From assembly GCF_011065405.1 (NCBI RefSeq), contig NZ_CP047056.1, forward strand, positions 1,138,747-1,202,746: a DNA stretch of 64,000 nucleotides. Direction: 5' to 3'. This stretch comes from Succinivibrio dextrinosolvens. Lineage in GTDB: Bacteria > Pseudomonadota > Gammaproteobacteria > Enterobacterales > Succinivibrionaceae. The notes below the pieces were generated by a model. It did no database searches and was not told where the DNA came from. It saw only the letters and a program-made list of their open reading frames with translations. A program made the position numbers and the translations under genes. Positions 3,126-49,006 of the stretch are shown piece by piece (position 1 is the stretch's first letter; each line of letters opens with the position of its first letter).

Positions 3126-4094
3126 TTACTGTACTTGTTTTTTTATAGTTTCTACCAGATTCAGCTGAGCAGTCTTTGCAGCCTCAACCAGCGCTACAGC
3201 AACAGCTTCCTTGCCAGCACTGGCATGGCTCTTGATTACAAGACCATCAACACCTAAAAGCACAGAGCCGTTGTACTGCCATGGTTGAAGCCACTCAGGT
3301 CTAGCAAGTTTTGAGAAAAACTTCTTCATTCCCTGAGCATTCAGGAAGGCTGAGGCCACACCTTCTGCGGCCTTAAGAGCAACATTACCGGTAAATCCGT
3401 CGGTAACAATTACATCTGCATCATCTGTAAAGAGCTTATCTGCTTCAACAAAGCCGTAGCAGTTCAGAGAATGATCCTGCTCGATCAGATCACGAGCTTC
3501 CTTAACCAGGGCACTGCCCTTGTTTCTCTCGCTACCAACATTAAGCACACAGACTCTTGGCTTTGAAACATTGTAGAAACATTGATAAGCAGTCTGGCCC
3601 AGGATTGCGAAATCATGAAGATCCTTGGCATTGCTTGATGCATTAGCACCAAGATCCAGCATTAAGGAGTATTTTGAGGGACCAGCAGGGATCTTTGCAC
3701 ATAAGGCAGGTCTTAAACCGCCTATGGTACCAAGAATATGACGGGAAAGGCTGACTAATGGACCAGTACCGCCACTTGACACGGCAACATCAGCTTCCTT
3801 GTCTTTAACAGCTTCGATAACACGACGCATTGCGGAAGTACGATATCCTTCCAGAACAGCTCTAGGATCTTCATCCTGAGGAATGCACTCTGGAGCATCA
3901 ATGAATTCATATCGGCTTGAATCAACTTTCTCAAAAGCAAGAGCAACTTTCAGCTTTTGAGATCCGTAAACCTTGATTTTGATATTAGGATATAAAACCA
4001 ATGCAAAACGAACTGCACTGGCAACTGACTTGGCATCGACATTGTCTCCGCCAGTTCCATCGAGGGCTACAGTAATTTTAGTTTCGCTATTCAC
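3126..4094 (-). CDS. plsX: Phosphate acyltransferase PlsX
   Basis: Makes acyl-phosphate from acyl-ACP, feeding PlsY in phospholipid synthesis, and acts at the inner face of the membrane. The 322-residue protein has PlsX hallmarks (CIPQDEDPRAVLEGYR-type loop, a long VSSGGTGPLVSLSR segment, IVTDGFTGNVALKAAEG near the C-terminus). The usual N-terminal ALDAMGGD motif reads ALDGTGGDN here, and the VSSGNTGA-type loop reads VSSGGTGPL; both are conservative but unusual. It lies 90 bp downstream of rpmF and 141 bp upstream of fabH, as in E. coli. Confidence 0.94.
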   Translation of the reverse strand: MNSETKITVALDGTGGDNVDAKSVASAVRFALVLYPNIKIKVYGSQKLKVALAFEKVDSSRYEFIDAPECIPQDEDPRAVLEGYRTSAMRRVIEAVKDKEADVAVSSGGTGPLVSLSRHILGTIGGLRPALCAKIPAGPSKYSLMLDLGANASSNAKDLHDFAILGQTAYQCFYNVSKPRVCVLNVGSERNKGSALVKEARDLIEQDHSLNCYGFVEADKLFTDDADVIVTDGFTGNVALKAAEGVASAFLNAQGMKKFFSKLARPEWLQPWQYNGSVLLGVDGLVIKSHASAGKEAVAVALVEAAKTAQLNLVETIKKQVQ

Positions 4095-26784: not shown

Positions 26785-26860
26785 TGGCTCCTCCTGCGGG
26801 ACTCGAACCTGCGACATACGGATTAACAGTCCGCCGTTCTACCGACTGAACTAAGGAGGA
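26785..26860 (-). tRNA. tRNA-Asn(GTT), copy 2
   Basis: 76 nt read on the minus strand, starting TCCTCCTTAGTTCAG and ending in GGAGGAG plus encoded CCA. The acceptor stem TCCTCCT/AGGAGGA, TTC-arm GTTCGAGTC and anticodon loop CTGTTAA with anticodon GTT identify asparagine. Identical base for base to the other copy and separated from it by 23 bp. Confidence 0.97.
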
Positions 26861-26883
26861 ATACCTAGCTTTCTTTTTTTGAT

Positions 26884-26959
26884 TGGCTCCTCCTGCGGGA
26901 CTCGAACCTGCGACATACGGATTAACAGTCCGCCGTTCTACCGACTGAACTAAGGAGGA
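26884..26959 (-). tRNA. tRNA-Asn(GTT), copy 1
   Basis: Promoter-proximal copy, 76 nt, identical to its neighbour, anticodon GTT, CCA encoded. The precursor leader carries a GTTTTCA/TGAAAAC hairpin (26974-26995) between the promoter and the first tRNA. Confidence 0.97.
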
Positions 26960-43696: not shown

Positions 43697-44283
43697 ATGG
43701 CTGTATGTGCTAACTGCGGTTTTGACGAGAAAGACTCTAATGTAAAGTTTTGCAAAATCTGTGGAAGACCATTAACAGGAAAAATAAAAGTACATTCAAG
43801 TGATGAACTTATTGATCTTGTTAATGTGTATTCTGCTCATGCAAATGCCGCTCATTTAGAGCTTCTTGACTTGAACTTTATTGATACCTCAGAACTTACC
43901 TCTATTAAAGCTGTGTTCTTATTTAACGAATACATGGGAAAAGTAGATGTTAGTGGATGGGATGTCAGCAATGTTGAAGATATGGCTCTAGCTTTTAATG
44001 GCTCTCAATTCGATACAGGTTTATCTAATTGGGACATCTCAAAAGTAAAAAACATGAGCCTGATGTTTTGTCAGACTGCAGGAAAAATTACAGGTTTTGG
44101 TAAATGGAATGTTTCAAACGTTACTGACATGAGTCATATGTTTTCAGGTATGAAAAACTCATTTCTGGATATCGAAACGTGGGATGTTTCAAACGTGAAT
44201 ACAATGACTGAAATGTTCGAATCATCTGAATTTGACGGTGATATAGGAGCATGAAATGTATCTAATGTAAAAGATATGAGATT
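43697..44283 (+). pseudogene. Zinc-ribbon/BspA-type repeat protein, 5' half (interrupted)
   Basis: The product starts with a zinc ribbon (C4-x2-C7...C19-x2-C22) and continues in BspA/DUF285-type repeats of about 25 residues with the pattern W(D/N)VSNV..M..MF. No signal peptide, so probably cytoplasmic. Two lesions: TGA at 44252-44254 stands where the repeat demands Trp (TGG to TGA), and a transposon begins at 44284. Reading through the stop and joining to 48571 gives a continuous 340-residue protein with about eight repeats. The start has a strong GCGGAGG site. Function unknown; a protein-binding scaffold is inference from the repeats. Confidence 0.85.
44279..44283 (+). repeat. Target site duplication, left copy
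   Basis: AGATT immediately before the element's TGTTACTG end; the same five bases follow the right end at 48566. Five-bp duplications are the rule for the Tn7/Tn5053/Mu group of transposons. Confidence 0.93.
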
Positions 44284-44363
44284 TGTTACTGCTAGCTAAT
44301 AATGACCACTAATTGATATAAAATCCTGTCTCTTTTTATCCTTATTGCCACAATATTTTGTCC
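44284..44363 (+). repeat. Left transposon end with three transposase-site repeats
   Basis: Counting from the outer T, motifs resembling TTTTGTCC end at positions 24 (ATGACC), 48 (CCTGTCT) and 80 (ATTTTGTCC). The right end has the same series at 24, 48 and 79. Such repeated subterminal sites are where TnsB/TniA/MuA-type transposases bind. Confidence 0.8.
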
Positions 44364-44481
44364 ACCATCTAATAGCGATCTTAAATATTATCTAAAGAGG
44401 CTTTTGTAAGCTGATTTCTGGAATAAAAACAAAAGCTAATCTAAATTTAGGAAAGGAAGTTCTGAATTGAATTTCTGAGGG

Positions 44482-44520
44482 GGGAGTCGTGCCAAAGTTT
44501 TCCCGACTTACACGACTCCC
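44482..44520 (+). other. Strong hairpin in the transposon leader
   Basis: GGGAGTCGTG (44482-44491) pairs perfectly with CACGACTCCC (44511-44520), loop 19 nt; the loop's CGACT offers a competing pairing with AGTCG. It lies 33 bp before the first transposon gene and has no T-run. It may insulate the transposon genes from outside transcripts, as hairpins near IS ends do, or control the first gene. Confidence 0.6.
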
Positions 44521-44553
44521 GTGTCAACCAATACCATTACATAAAAGTTGACA

Positions 44554-45390
44554 ATGCAGATCTTAGCACAGCAGCCTGTTATTACAGTACAAAACTACGA
44601 AGATACTTGCAGAATTTCAATTACAGTCACAAATGATGAATTGAAAACTCTCAGTTGTCCTTACTGCAAATCCTCTCTAACTAGATTTGGCTACTACTAT
44701 AAGCATCCGAGAGCAATTGAGTTTAATATAAAACAGTTGAAACTTACCAATCCTGAAGTCAATAGTTCCATGGGGAAGCTTGAGATTAGAGTTCCACGGC
44801 TGTGCTGTACCTCTAAGAAATGTCCTTTGGTTGAAAGTAATAAAAGCGGAATAACCACCTTTGGGATTTTTAATTCCAGCATATTTATGCCCTTCAGACA
44901 GTATTTACCGGAACTGATGGACTTAACGTCTGACTACATCAACTCTGAAAGCGTAATAAATCAATCTGAGTCAGATATTCAGGAAAAGCAGGCTGCAAGG
45001 AAAATAATAAAATCCCTGAACAGGAAACTCTCTGTAACAGAGGATGAATCTGATAATGATTTTTTTAGAGATTTTATTACGCCCTATAGAAAATCAAGGA
45101 TCGGAGCTTTAGTCTCAGCTCTTAAGAAAAATGTAAACTACTTTTTTGACAAGCTGCTTCTTACAAACTACCTGTCACCTCAGCAATCCTCAGTCCCTTT
45201 AAAGAATCACGACAGTCCGTACTTACATCCAGCAGACAGCCTTATTTCCTCCATGCTGTTTCTGCTCTCAAAATATGTCCCTCATTTACCAACACAGATT
45301 GCAATCTCCTATGCCAGAACCTATTGGAAAATTAGCCTCAAGCGAACTGAAGTGTCGGCAAATGGAGAAAAATTCAATGACAGCAGTTAA
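44554..45390 (+). CDS. Transposon protein with zinc-binding motif (DUF6431-like)
   Basis: First gene of the transposon; 278 residues from ATG at 44554 (a TTG two codons earlier is also possible). The N-terminal half has CPYC (C35, C38) followed by a basic stretch, then RVPRLCCTSKKC (C84, C85, C90) and THGIF-like TTFGIFNSSIFMPFRQY. This resembles zinc-binding DUF6431-type proteins that I recall being found beside rve transposases; that assignment is from memory. The C-terminal half has no recognised motif. Its end overlaps the transposase start by 14 bp. It could be a DNA-binding transposition factor or target selector. No TnsA-type endonuclease motif is apparent. Confidence 0.75.
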   Translation: MQILAQQPVITVQNYEDTCRISITVTNDELKTLSCPYCKSSLTRFGYYYKHPRAIEFNIKQLKLTNPEVNSSMGKLEIRVPRLCCTSKKCPLVESNKSGITTFGIFNSSIFMPFRQYLPELMDLTSDYINSESVINQSESDIQEKQAARKIIKSLNRKLSVTEDESDNDFFRDFITPYRKSRIGALVSALKKNVNYFFDKLLLTNYLSPQQSSVPLKNHDSPYLHPADSLISSMLFLLSKYVPHLPTQIAISYARTYWKISLKRTEVSANGEKFNDSS

Positions 45391-46924
45391 TAAATACCAG
45401 CGCAATAAAGAAGTAAATGGTATTCGTTACCAGATAATCTGTGAACTTATAAATATGCCGGCAGATACTCCTGCCGACGTAAGAGCCCGTGCGTCCAGGA
45501 TTAGGACTGTAGCAGAGAACAACGGACTTTCTGTTAAGACTATCAGACGCTGGCTTAACGCTTATAAAGCTAAAGGTTTTACCGGACTGACTCCGGCATA
45601 CAGAGAAAGCCGTTCAGACAAAAGACTGCCGCAGTGTTTTGAGGAGGCATTAGAAAGAGCTGTAGCCATGCGTCATGCTGACAATACTCTCAGTGTTGCC
45701 AATATTATCCGCTGTCTTGAATCAGAGAATCCTGCTCTTAAAAATCGCATCAAGCGTTCTACGCTGCAGAGGCACCTTCAGGAGCATGAAGCTGCCAGAA
45801 GAGATCTGGTTAGCAATGCACTCCAGCATGGCAGAAGAGTACTGGGTAGGTTTCAGGTTAAAACCAGAATGGCATTACTAGTCGGCGATATCAAGGAGCC
45901 TGCAAGAAAAATCGTATGGAATGATGAGCATACCGAGCTTTTAGACAGGATTTACATTGCCATCCTGATAGATAACTGTCATCGAAAAGTGCTGGACTAT
46001 CAGATTTCAACCACAGGCAATACGGATTTATTCTTATCAGGCCTGTATAACGTTATCAAGCTTTATGGTCAGATTAAGGCATTACATCTGGATTTAGGTT
46101 CTCAGTACAGGAATCAGAAAGTAACCAATGCCTGCAGGCTTCTGAATATCACTCTTAAATACTGTAAGCCCAGGTCTGCCTGGCAGAAAGGCTCTATAGA
46201 AAGACTCAACCGTACCATTGATGATTATCTGGTGGAGGTTGAAAAGGCTAAATCAATGGGATTTACCGCTTTCTGCGAGGGCTTTGCAGAGAGGATCAGA
46301 GTTTATAACGATACTCCTCACTCCAATGAAATTCTCAACGGAAAAACTCCTAATGAGTCTTTTAATAGTGATCTGACTCCTCTTGTATATCTGGATGATT
46401 TGGCTGTTGCCAATGCTTTTGAATTTGCCAAAACATGCAGAGTCTACAGTGATTACATCAAGTATGACAAAAGGAAATGGAAGATTGAACCTCAGTACAT
46501 AAAGGCTGATAAGAAAGTAATGATTATTACCCGCCCCAATTCTCCATGTCCTGAGCTTTACACAGAAACCGACGGCTGTATTCCTCTTAAGGAATACGAG
46601 ATTGGTGAGAAGGTATCTCAAAAGTGTTTTCATGCCTCCTCTCCCTCCGAGGCCTACGAGAAGGAATATCCAATGATTGATTTACTGTTTAGAGAAAAAA
46701 TGAGACAGGAGAATCGCTATACCACTGAAGAGGCCTTTAGAGAATACATGAAAAAGGAGGTTTACAACATAATTTCTGAAAAGGAAGGAAATAAACAGGA
46801 GCTTTCAGACTTTAAAAAGCAGAAGAAAGACGGAGTGTCATCTGAAGATATAAGACAGGCTGCCTCCATCACTTCCCCTTATACCACTTTGGCGGAAATG
46901 AACTCTAAAAAAGATGAGGATTGA
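45377..46924 (+). CDS. DDE transposase (rve integrase core, TniA/TnsB-like)
   Basis: Catalyses strand transfer of the element. The start is taken as ATG 45377, seven bases after GGAGAA, giving 515 residues; the reading frame opens further upstream inside the previous gene. N-terminal helix-turn-helix regions (NGLSVKTIRRWLNAYKAKG) precede the rve core with D171 (GDIKEP), D239 (HLDLGSQ) and E275 (KGSIERLNR): D2 and E are separated by 35 residues, the D,D(35)E pattern. A Mu-like C-terminal region follows. The stop lies 2 bp before the ATPase ATG, so the three genes form a coupled operon. Confidence 0.92.
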   Translation: MTAVNKYQRNKEVNGIRYQIICELINMPADTPADVRARASRIRTVAENNGLSVKTIRRWLNAYKAKGFTGLTPAYRESRSDKRLPQCFEEALERAVAMRHADNTLSVANIIRCLESENPALKNRIKRSTLQRHLQEHEAARRDLVSNALQHGRRVLGRFQVKTRMALLVGDIKEPARKIVWNDEHTELLDRIYIAILIDNCHRKVLDYQISTTGNTDLFLSGLYNVIKLYGQIKALHLDLGSQYRNQKVTNACRLLNITLKYCKPRSAWQKGSIERLNRTIDDYLVEVEKAKSMGFTAFCEGFAERIRVYNDTPHSNEILNGKTPNESFNSDLTPLVYLDDLAVANAFEFAKTCRVYSDYIKYDKRKWKIEPQYIKADKKVMIITRPNSPCPELYTETDGCIPLKEYEIGEKVSQKCFHASSPSEAYEKEYPMIDLLFREKMRQENRYTTEEAFREYMKKEVYNIISEKEGNKQELSDFKKQKKDGVSSEDIRQAASITSPYTTLAEMNSKKDED

Positions 46925-46926
46925 TT

Positions 46927-47781
46927 ATGAACTTCAACATTAAAGAGCATTTTAAATTCGTAAGAATGCCGTTTTCACAGAATATACCGGTGGAATTTCT
47001 ATACCAGAATGACAGGACCAGAGAAATTCTCAGCAAAATGTCATTTGCAGCAGCTGATAACCGTTTTCTGGTGCTGTCAGGCCCTGTAGGTACCGGGAAG
47101 AGCACGGTCCTGCGCTGTTTTACCGGCGGTCTTAATAAGGATGAGTATCAGGTTTTCTATATCTCCTGCTCTGCCATGACTCCAAGATTCTTTTACCTGG
47201 CTCCTCTGCTTCAGATGGGAATAAAACCAAAGTTTTATATGTTTAACCTGAAAGAACAGTTCAACAAGGAGGTAATAAGGCTTACCAGAACCTTAGGAAA
47301 GAAAGTAGTCTACATCATAGATGAAGCTCATCGTCTGGAGCAGACCTCCCGTTATTCAAACGAATGTTTTGAGGAAATACGATTTTTTCTGAACATTGAA
47401 TATGACTCAGGAAATCCTCTATCCCTGATATTGTGCGGACAGGAGGAAATATGGGAACAGAGCTGTCTGGGAAATGCCAAATGTAAAGCCATCGTACAGA
47501 GAATTGATTTGACCTGTAAAACCGAGGCTCTGACAGTTTCTGAGATTGGGGCCTATATTGCTGCTCATCTGAAGGCGGCTGGAGGTACCGATGGTTTATT
47601 TGAAAAAGATGCGATTAAGCTTATTGCCAACAGCAGTGGAGGTATACCAAGAGTAATCAACAAAATCTGCACCCAGGGACTGCTGTACGCAATGTCACAG
47701 TCTGCCAACGTGGTGACTGGAGAGATGATCTCCAGTGTTTTTGCCAATGAAGAGCTTCCAAATATAGTCTTAAGCAAATAA
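46927..47781 (+). CDS. Transposition AAA ATPase (TniB/ExeA-like)
   Basis: The 284-residue protein has Walker A GPVGTGKS (52-59), Walker B VVYIIDEAH (D132, E133), a sensor LILCGQEEIW and an arginine-rich segment IVQRIDL, ending in a lid domain (IPRVINKICTQGLLYA) typical of ExeA/TniB/TnsC-type ATPases. In Tn5053 and Tn7 relatives this protein activates the transposase and mediates target choice and immunity. The ATG at 46927 has GAGGA six bases upstream, within the transposase 3' end. Intact. Confidence 0.9.
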   Translation: MNFNIKEHFKFVRMPFSQNIPVEFLYQNDRTREILSKMSFAAADNRFLVLSGPVGTGKSTVLRCFTGGLNKDEYQVFYISCSAMTPRFFYLAPLLQMGIKPKFYMFNLKEQFNKEVIRLTRTLGKKVVYIIDEAHRLEQTSRYSNECFEEIRFFLNIEYDSGNPLSLILCGQEEIWEQSCLGNAKCKAIVQRIDLTCKTEALTVSEIGAYIAAHLKAAGGTDGLFEKDAIKLIANSSGGIPRVINKICTQGLLYAMSQSANVVTGEMISSVFANEELPNIVLSK

Positions 47782-47794
47782 AAAGGAGAATTCT

Positions 47795-48427
47795 ATGAGT
47801 GAAAATTTAAAGATAAGTTCACCTGTTACGCAGGAGACATCTAATCAGGAAGAGTTCAGCAATACAAACAGTAATCAGAGCTCAGAACACTTTGTTTTCA
47901 ATGATCCGTTGCCTTGGGATAATGGAAGCAATACTGAGCCTTATATTGAAGGATTACCTGATCCTGAATGTGATCCGGTTGCAGATTACCTTGAAGGAGA
48001 GCCGCAATCCTATAGAGCTGCCGATGATCTCTATGAGGAAAAGCCTAAGTTTTACTACGTGGACGCTCTTAAGGACACACATGCTGTAGAACTGGCAACA
48101 GCCATTAAAAGACTTGATCACATAAGAGATAAATACTACAGGATCAATTCTACTCTAAAGAAGAAAACCAGGCTTGTATATCTGGTTGAGCATCTGAACA
48201 GCTACGAAACAAAGGAATTGCTTGAATTCAGTGAAGATTATTTAAACAGTCTTGATAATTTAAACTATGAAATACGCATTTTTGCAAACAGAATAGACGA
48301 AGTTGTTAGGCTGCTAAGACTAATTGATGACGGAGCTGAGAAAATAAAGGAAATAGAAGGAAAAATGAATCTAACCTACGTCTCGGATAAGAATTACAAT
48401 CTGCGGATGGAGCAGTATACAGATTAA
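47795..48427 (+). CDS. Transposon accessory protein, acidic coiled coil
   Basis: No family recognised. The 210-residue protein has a low-complexity acidic N-terminal half (Ser/Asn/Glu/Pro-rich, about 1-90) and a helical C-terminal half with heptad-like stretches (about 97-200, including LEFSEDYLNSLDNLNYEIRI). AAAGGAGA precedes the ATG and the gene begins 13 bp after the ATPase stop, so it belongs to the transposon operon. It sits in the position where Tn5053 relatives carry TniQ but has no TniQ zinc motif. Could be a targeting or regulatory subunit. Confidence 0.75.
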   Translation: MSENLKISSPVTQETSNQEEFSNTNSNQSSEHFVFNDPLPWDNGSNTEPYIEGLPDPECDPVADYLEGEPQSYRAADDLYEEKPKFYYVDALKDTHAVELATAIKRLDHIRDKYYRINSTLKKKTRLVYLVEHLNSYETKELLEFSEDYLNSLDNLNYEIRIFANRIDEVVRLLRLIDDGAEKIKEIEGKMNLTYVSDKNYNLRMEQYTD

Positions 48428-48444
48428 GAGATGGCATTCGTTTT

Positions 48445-48466
48445 AGCCCCTTTTTTGGGGCTTTGT
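48445..48466 (+). terminator. Terminator of the transposon operon
   Basis: AGCCCC (48445-48450), TTTTTT loop, GGGGCT (48457-48462), followed by TTG. Located 17 bp after the last transposon gene, with only a short T tract. Confidence 0.75.
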
Positions 48467-48486
48467 TATCCCTAAATAAATATGAG

Positions 48487-48565
48487 GGACAAAATATTAA
48501 AGCAACTTTTTTATTATGGACAGAATTTAATAGCAGTTTGAGGACAAAATAGGAAATCAGTAACA
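48487..48565 (-). repeat. Right transposon end with three transposase-site repeats
   Basis: Read inward from the outer end on the minus strand, TGTTACTG is followed by TATTTTGTCC ending at position 24, AAATTCTGTCC ending at 48 and AATATTTTGTCC ending at 79, matching the spacing at the left end within one base. Confidence 0.85.
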
Positions 48566-48570
48566 AGATT
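48566..48570 (+). repeat. Target site duplication, right copy
   Basis: AGATT directly after CAGTAACA, identical to 44279-44283. Confidence 0.93.
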
Positions 48571-49006
48571 CATGTTTAAAAACTCCAAATTCAACGGCGA
48601 TATCAGTAAGTGGGATGTATCCATCGTTGAAAATATGTCTGAAATGTTCCTTGAAAGTAAATTTACAGCAGATATAAGCAACTGGAACGTTTGTAATGTT
48701 AGAACAATGGCAAGCATGTTTGAGGACTGTAAAGGCGGTGTGGAAGAAAACAAACTAAAATCAGTAGAGCTAAGCAAATGGAATGTTTCCAGAGTAGTTG
48801 ATTTCTCCAGAATGTTCAAAAATGCAAACTCCGTTTTTGACGTAAGTAAATGGAAAATAGATAGCGCTGTAAACTTCTTTGATACTGGATTAGACTGTAA
48901 TGAAGGATTTGACTTTATCAAAGAACAGTTAAACCAAAAGAAAACAATTGATCTCAATGAGACAGATGAACTTGAGAAACTCAAGGGATACGTTCTAATT
49001 GGGTAA
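48571..49006 (+). pseudogene. BspA-type repeat protein, 3' half (separated by transposon)
   Basis: Continues the interrupted gene in the same frame: FMFKNSKFNGDISKWDVS and three further repeats, ending in a non-repeat tail (DLNETDELEKLKGYVLIG). An internal ATG at 48572 could in principle start a 144-residue fragment, but no ribosome binding site is visible (CAGTAACAAG precedes it). The fragment has no further stops, which with the intact duplication suggests a recent insertion. Confidence 0.85.

Follow-up and report, generated by a model that had tools for sequence, protein, structure and literature searches.

Here we describe a complete transposon of Succinivibrio dextrinosolvens that couples a DDE transposase to an AAA ATPase and carries no recognizable TniQ, TnsA or resolvase. 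The element occupies 4,282 bp, at positions 44284-48565, of a 64,000-nucleotide stretch (the window; contig NZ_CP047056.1, positions 1,138,747 to 1,202,746) of a host genome that consists of one contig of 3.47 Mb. It is mobile now or was until recently, and it likely belongs with a widespread, apparently undescribed group of elements in which genes for a DUF6431 protein, a DDE transposase and an AAA ATPase follow one another (DUF6431-DDE-AAA). The first of its four genes, A, encodes a zinc-ribbon-type protein that is likely, judging from profile comparisons, a very divergent relative of DUF6431 and not TniQ. Whether the element as a whole is a complete DDE and AAA transposon in which A acts as a DUF6431-related target-selection adaptor in place of TniQ is, in our estimate, an even call, chiefly since a targeting role for A is a prediction.

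The features of the element, with the basis of each assignment, are as follows.

44284-48565: complete transposon, 4,282 bp (sequence, list of open reading frames, own-genome search)
44279-44283: target-site duplication AGATT, left copy (sequence)
48566-48570: target-site duplication AGATT, right copy (sequence)
44284-44370: left end, with tip TGTTACTG and three inward repeats of ~20 bp at ~44289-44308, 44313-44332 and 44344-44364
48480-48565: right end, with three inward repeats at ~48541-48560, 48517-48536 and 48486-48506 and tip CAGTAACA
44554-45390, plus strand: gene A, 278 amino acids, zinc-ribbon-type protein (C35-x2-C38 ... C85-x4-C90), predicted adaptor
45377-46924, plus strand: gene B, 515 amino acids, DDE (rve) transposase of the IS481/IS21 side (Pfam, NCBIfam, alignment, tree)
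46927-47781, plus strand: gene C, 284 amino acids, AAA ATPase (AAA_22; ExeA/TniB-like) with Walker A GPVGTGKS and Walker B VVYIIDEAH
47795-48427, plus strand: gene D, 210 amino acids, with an acidic N-terminal part (Pfam scan, relatives search, composition)
48445-48464, plus strand: GCCCC/GGGGC hairpin followed by T's, a likely operon terminator (read in the sequence)

Five copies of a mobile element with repeated ends

The borders, the AGATT duplication and the four open reading frames proposed in a first-pass annotation of this DNA were borne out by the sequence and the reading-frame list, which contains no further forward-strand frame of at least 80 amino acids inside the element. All four genes lie on one strand, and because A overlaps B while gaps of only 2 bp and 13 bp separate B from C and C from D, they likely form one operon. 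Further copies with the same ends and genes, which the annotation had proposed to look for, were recovered by a search of the host genome: five full-length copies, 96-100% alike (L001, the window copy, to L005), four of which are bounded by 5-bp target duplications (AGATT in the window, TCTGT, CCACC and CCTCA) and the fifth of which, L003, has a duplication of just 4 bp, CAAT. L002 and L003 agree at all aligned bases, as do L004 and L005, and the two pairs are 99.6% identical to each other, whereas the window copy is 96.3-96.8% identical to the other four. A lone, decayed left-end remnant of 150 bp (L006, C1:1089749-1089898) has 84% identity to the corresponding leftmost part of the element.

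The claim that the genes are intact holds for two copies: all four are open in the window copy and in L004, where A, B and C run at full length and D is 5 codons shorter, as it is in all four copies outside the window. Elsewhere it does not hold, as B is frame-shifted in three of the five copies (L002, L003 and L005) and C in one (L005), always by 1-nucleotide indels, for which sequencing error is a possible cause. Between the window copy and L004, the ratio of nonsynonymous to synonymous change (dN/dS) was 0.33 for A (29 changes), 0.15 for D (54 changes) and, resting on small numbers of changes, 0.19 for B (12) and 0.08 for C (18); all four values are below 1, as expected of genes kept as proteins. 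Divergence among copies is mosaic. The window copy and L002 differ mainly in the first 1.4 kb and the last 0.6 kb and scarcely in most of B and C, and L002 and L004 are distinguished by a cluster of 17 base differences inside 200 bp of C, a pattern that suggests gene conversion among the copies.

Each end carries three repeats with the core TGTCC, located near 20, 44 and 75 bp from the tip; several binding sites per end is the end plan of AAA-partnered transposons. The repeats are clearest in L003, whose 130-bp ends, compared between and within each other, gave 32 pairs of 16-mers at three or fewer mismatches; 60 single-base shuffles yielded no more than 6 such pairs (mean 0.2). Repeats of the same type were likewise seen in the window copy, where the core is degenerate in the first two left repeats. 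A 24-bp end pattern matched exactly nine times in the host genome, always at the ends of the five copies, the window left end differing by one mismatch. No further exact end that might mark a mini-element was found in that genome, and at two or fewer mismatches the pattern matched 109 times against 87 for a reversed control.

The transposase and the lack of TniQ set the element apart from Tn7 and Tn5053

The proposed D,D(35)E motif of an rve transposase was confirmed in B (D171, D239 and E275). The best named model for B was NCBIfam IS481, at 111.1 bits below its cut-off of 224; the IS21 model scored 37.5 bits, below a cut-off of 160, and the best match among PDB sequences had an E-value of 0.039. 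Mu-transpos_C (PF09299) is the mark of TniA and TnsB. It was not among the 11 Pfam rows obtained for B at E-values up to 1, and a search of 40 genomes found it in seven and nowhere in the host genome.

We built a tree of 36 transposase rows, containing no named TniA or TnsB and no IS3 row, in which the B-type, IS21 and IS481 rows split from seven Mu-transpos_C transposases of relatives with support of 98/95. B falls in a clade of six Succinivibrionaceae-type rows (100/100), outside the IS21 clade, and its nearest named relatives are likewise from Succinivibrionaceae. The 16-row group that unites B with Bacillota and other elements received 88/91, under the 95 mark, and a single clade of all 20 B-type rows 56/60. 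Long-branch warnings attach to L100, L103, L111 and L012; L011, L054 and the partial istA of the host genome were left out, L021 stood in place of L041, and L091 and L094 were kept as a separate group.

Gene C matched AAA_22 at 72.5 bits and TniB at 20.6 bits, slightly below the cut-off of 22.4. It also matched a family of phage proteins for DNA transposition (E 7e-16), the ExeA-like model TIGR03015 (101.7 bits, far under the cut-off of 324.5) and, among PDB sequences, a single ABC ATPase row (E 0.0047). By homology, B would carry out strand transfer, with C as the ATPase that partners it. Neither TnsA nor a resolvase appeared in the Pfam rows of A, B or D, or among the 25 rows, of 33, that were listed for C. 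A search of the whole host genome for TniQ returned nothing, with 8 of 40 genomes positive. Together with the five copies and their duplications, these scans support the first-pass description of a complete, recently mobile DDE and AAA transposon that lacks TniQ, TnsA and a resolvase.

The same annotation had called the element Tn7/Tn5053-like, which did not survive. Tn5053/Tn402 and Tn7 do resemble it in their DDE and AAA logic, TGT/ACA ends, 5-bp duplications (in most copies here) and repeated end sites, and these likenesses would also fit a divergent offshoot of Tn7/Tn5053 that has A in place of TniQ and D in place of TnsA. Against them stand a transposase that is without Mu-transpos_C and falls in a separate clade (the 98/95 split), the lack of any TniQ in the genome, and a match of only 0.6% between the A profile and a TniQ profile. 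We rejected membership on these grounds. That A and D gave no TniQ, TnsA or resolvase row, and that sister elements have other proteins where D would lie, leaves the divergent-branch explanation very improbable.

An ordinary insertion sequence is another alternative. IS481 is a one-gene element, and B could belong to an IS481-type insertion sequence that carries A, C and D as passengers. The best named match to B speaks for this, as do the TGT/ACA ends common to both, which occur in IS481 elements according to one report (PMC11406308). However, the match lies below the family cut-off, each end bears three repeats, and A and C accompany B across phyla with dN/dS below 1, so that we consider passenger genes unlikely.

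Gene A is likely a divergent DUF6431 relative

Searches with A returned 36 sequence relatives, of which 34 are 85-94% identical and the other two 66% and 48%; the sole named one comes from an uncultured Succinivibrio. Among Succinivibrionaceae-type counterparts, the proteins of L008 (28.2 bits) and L039 (27.5 bits) scored above the cut-off of DUF6431 (PF20020), and that of L009 (22.4 bits) scored below it. In profile comparisons, A matched these three DUF6431-matching proteins with a probability of 95.7% (E 8.5e-9), and the three in turn matched a profile of 18 Bacillota-type DUF6431 proteins at 96.8%. A TniQ alignment of six sequences served as the control and reached 0.6%, 0.1% and 0.3% against these three profiles, 0.6% being the value for A given above. 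The confident model of a typical DUF6431 protein consists of long strands with paired cysteines followed by helices. Thus the zinc-motif protein, which the first-pass annotation had left unassigned, is probably tied to DUF6431, and not to TniQ, through these profiles.

The DUF6431-DDE-AAA order is widespread

We then ran a transposase alignment of five rows against a single genome of each species and obtained 64 loci. With hidden Markov models (HMMs) built here, and with counts somewhat inflated because the HMM seeds were drawn from the same loci, an A-like gene lay directly upstream of the transposase at 49 of the 64 (49 of the 61 with room for one) and a C-like gene downstream at 44 of the 64 (43 of 56 with room); both were present at 37 of 53. 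Among plasmids, a search with B matched 48 records, every one below 60% identity, and all three of these that were examined are annotated with DUF6431, a DDE-type or IS481 transposase and an AAA ATPase. A plasmid search with A gave no match, and no relative of B was found in viral contigs. Examples of the order include Alicyclobacillus dauci NZ_CP104065, Ruminococcus albus pRUMAL01 and Geobacillus pGeo12a; many Bacillota have it, as do some bacteria outside that phylum.

These operons resemble the element in the succession of a zinc-ribbon gene, a DDE transposase and an AAA ATPase, often followed by a small fourth gene. They differ in that their first protein is mostly ~140-230 amino acids long, whereas A has 278 amino acids and lies below Pfam detection, and in that their fourth genes are not recognisably like D. 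A Eubacteriaceae pair (L044 and L045, the latter from Acetobacterium fimetarium) has TGTT...AACA tips with similar inward TGTC repeats, and duplications of 6 bp (GTATAT and AGCAAT) compared with 5 bp here. In the literature within reach, with most subscription papers, bioRxiv and ISfinder outside it, we found no description or family name for the DUF6431-DDE-AAA order; DUF6431 itself was encountered in a single paper, PMC12323340, as a gene-table line beside a DDE transposase.

A second lineage led by DUF6431-like genes

In the host genome, five loci carry a gene for a 203-amino-acid DUF6431-like protein directly before an istA-type gene. Two of the five score above the Pfam cut-off and three below, the DUF6431-like frame is uninterrupted from end to end in two, and one locus is split by transposon copy L005. 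A search with the 203-amino-acid protein found matches in 4 of 97 genomes, counting the host. The remaining three are G009, G028 and G216, in each of which the gene again stands just before an istA-type gene, so labelled by resemblance only in G028 and G216, and a second match in G009 sits at a contig edge where its context is not readable. L144 (host genome, C1:1486800-1492200), L148, L149 and L150 are IS21-like elements with a DUF6431-like gene at their head. Within L144, an apparently broken region that we take, from its P-loop, to be istB is followed by a coiled-coil frame and a small acidic frame, echoing the A-B-C-D layout. IS21 itself (IstA/IstB) shares with the window element the pairing of a DDE transposase with an ATPase, and the IS21-like copies of this genome share the leading gene as well, yet B scores far below the IS21 cut-off and falls outside the IS21 clade. 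DUF6431-like genes therefore lead two DDE and ATPase lineages, which is a new observation.

Gene D is lineage-specific

The C-terminal half of D is likely, from its sequence, a coiled coil. Acidic residues outnumber basic ones by 42 to 24 in the whole protein and by 20 to 4 in its first 90 positions. Its relatives, 38 proteins including that of the window, are 60-100% identical, and D is lineage-specific. The corresponding slot holds a different 159-amino-acid protein in the sister elements L016 and L036, and a KfrA_N plasmid-type DNA-binding coiled-coil protein in L039 (3870-4571) and in L009 and L042 (3904-4329). In Bacillota elements it holds DUF6618 (L044), DUF5348 or small hypothetical proteins. 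The L036 protein (3596-4075) ends in NDEVPF, which we take to resemble the acidic -PF tail of single-strand-binding proteins. That the fourth gene varies speaks against its having an essential role like that of TnsA. Of the earlier suggestion that the two unassigned proteins replace TniQ and TnsA, what stands is that A may plausibly hold the targeting place of TniQ; nothing supports a TnsA role for A or D.

Insertion sites and the interrupted host gene

The window copy lies within a DUF285 gene, whose two parts are as follows.

43697-44254, plus strand: 5' portion of the host DUF285 gene, closed by an in-frame TGA (sequence, open reading frames, Pfam, alignment)
48572-49006, plus strand: 3' portion of the host DUF285 gene, which continues the frame of the 5' portion when the element and one AGATT are taken out (Pfam, open reading frames, alignment)

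Removal of the element had been said to repair the host gene frame-perfectly. The reading frame is indeed restored, but the gene is not intact even without the element, since its 5' part already contains the TGA at 44252-44254, ~25 bp ahead of the target duplication; in two genomes of the same genus, homologues read TGG at the aligned position. Either the gene was interrupted before the insertion or one base of the TGA is a sequencing error. The proposed comparison of empty sites was borne out in so far as homologous DUF285 genes from two genomes of the genus align without gaps over the predicted join at 69-72% identity; an orthologous empty site, however, was not found among the 19 genomes of the genus searched. 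G011 matches the right flank at 94.7%, starting 102 bp away from the element, but has no match to the DUF285 repeats of the insertion site, so this genome offers no clean empty site.

Besides the DUF285 gene, the copies occupy the junction between a DUF6431-like and an istA-type gene (L005), positions outside any spanning open reading frame (L003 and L004) and what is presumably an AAA-ATPase-like gene (L002). Two of the five sites are thus inside genes, and the reading frame continues over the join in both, with the TGA upstream of it in the window. L004 lies ~0.7 kb from an AAA-ATPase-like gene whose protein appears to resemble that of the gene hit by L002. Elsewhere in the window, two tandem tRNA-Asn (gtt) genes lie at 26785-26959 on the minus strand.

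Evidence for and against a targeting role of A

Several observations weigh against our reading of the element and of A. A itself gave just three Pfam rows at E-values up to 1, all weak and short of their cut-offs, and none of them is DUF6431; four of the seven scanned counterparts (L010, L011, L016 and L021) also lack a DUF6431 match. Compared directly with the Bacillota-type DUF6431 profile, A reached a weak 62%, and the profile that links the two was built from just the three DUF6431-matching Succinivibrionaceae proteins. The fold models, that of the typical DUF6431 protein included, gave no convincing PDB match. By HMM, 15 of the 64 loci are without A, and eight of these (L091-L096, L098 and L099) are also without C; three others of the 15, the close kin L036, L038 and L041, do have a zinc-motif protein upstream, there or in the same contig under another locus number, which the HMM missed. 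With the IS21 model the istA-type genes reach 97-107 bits, where the cut-off is 160 bits, and 'IS21-like' is therefore the right label for their elements. In favor of our reading, the pattern GCT-N8-10-TGTC was seen upstream of A 24 times against 0.9 expected from shuffles at 26 of the 49 loci with A, with at least one occurrence at 14 of the 26; against it, the pattern was chosen after ends had been inspected, and it is absent from 12 of the 26 and from the left end of the window copy. Two occurrences lie at the right end of the window copy and one at the left end of L003.

Finally, no common target sequence was seen among the five insertion sites, which fits the main rival explanation, namely that A is an end-binding cofactor or an operon repressor that regulates B and C rather than a target selector. 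A is the first gene of the operon and adjoins the left-end repeats, and the short proteins related to it are predicted to combine a zinc ribbon with a helical tail, an architecture that would suit regulators too. However, A-like genes come first in two different DDE and ATPase lineages, as a private repressor need not. We regard a regulatory role as possible but on balance doubtful.

Discussion

If A is instead a DUF6431-related adaptor, a division of labor can be proposed for the element. B would bind the end repeats, nick the TGT...ACA ends and transfer them to target DNA, while C would mark or license that DNA. A would link target DNA to C, in the place held by TniQ in Tn7-type elements, and D may be a lineage-specific accessory protein with coiled and acidic parts. 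Without TnsA and a resolvase, the product would be a copied-out circle or else a strand-transfer intermediate or cointegrate that the repair or recombination systems of the host complete; inspection by eye revealed no outward junction promoter over the abutted ends.

On sequence grounds, A is a candidate for a non-TniQ target-selection adaptor common to two transposon lineages. More broadly, and tentatively, DUF6431-type zinc-ribbon proteins might be target selectors unrelated to TniQ that are used by both IS481-side and IS21-like elements. We know of no target selector reported for IS21-like elements, and a first-gene protein common to these and to IS481-side elements is a concrete candidate for targeting. 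With defined ends and two copies in which all four genes are open, the 4.3-kb element is small enough for laboratory testing of such a role.

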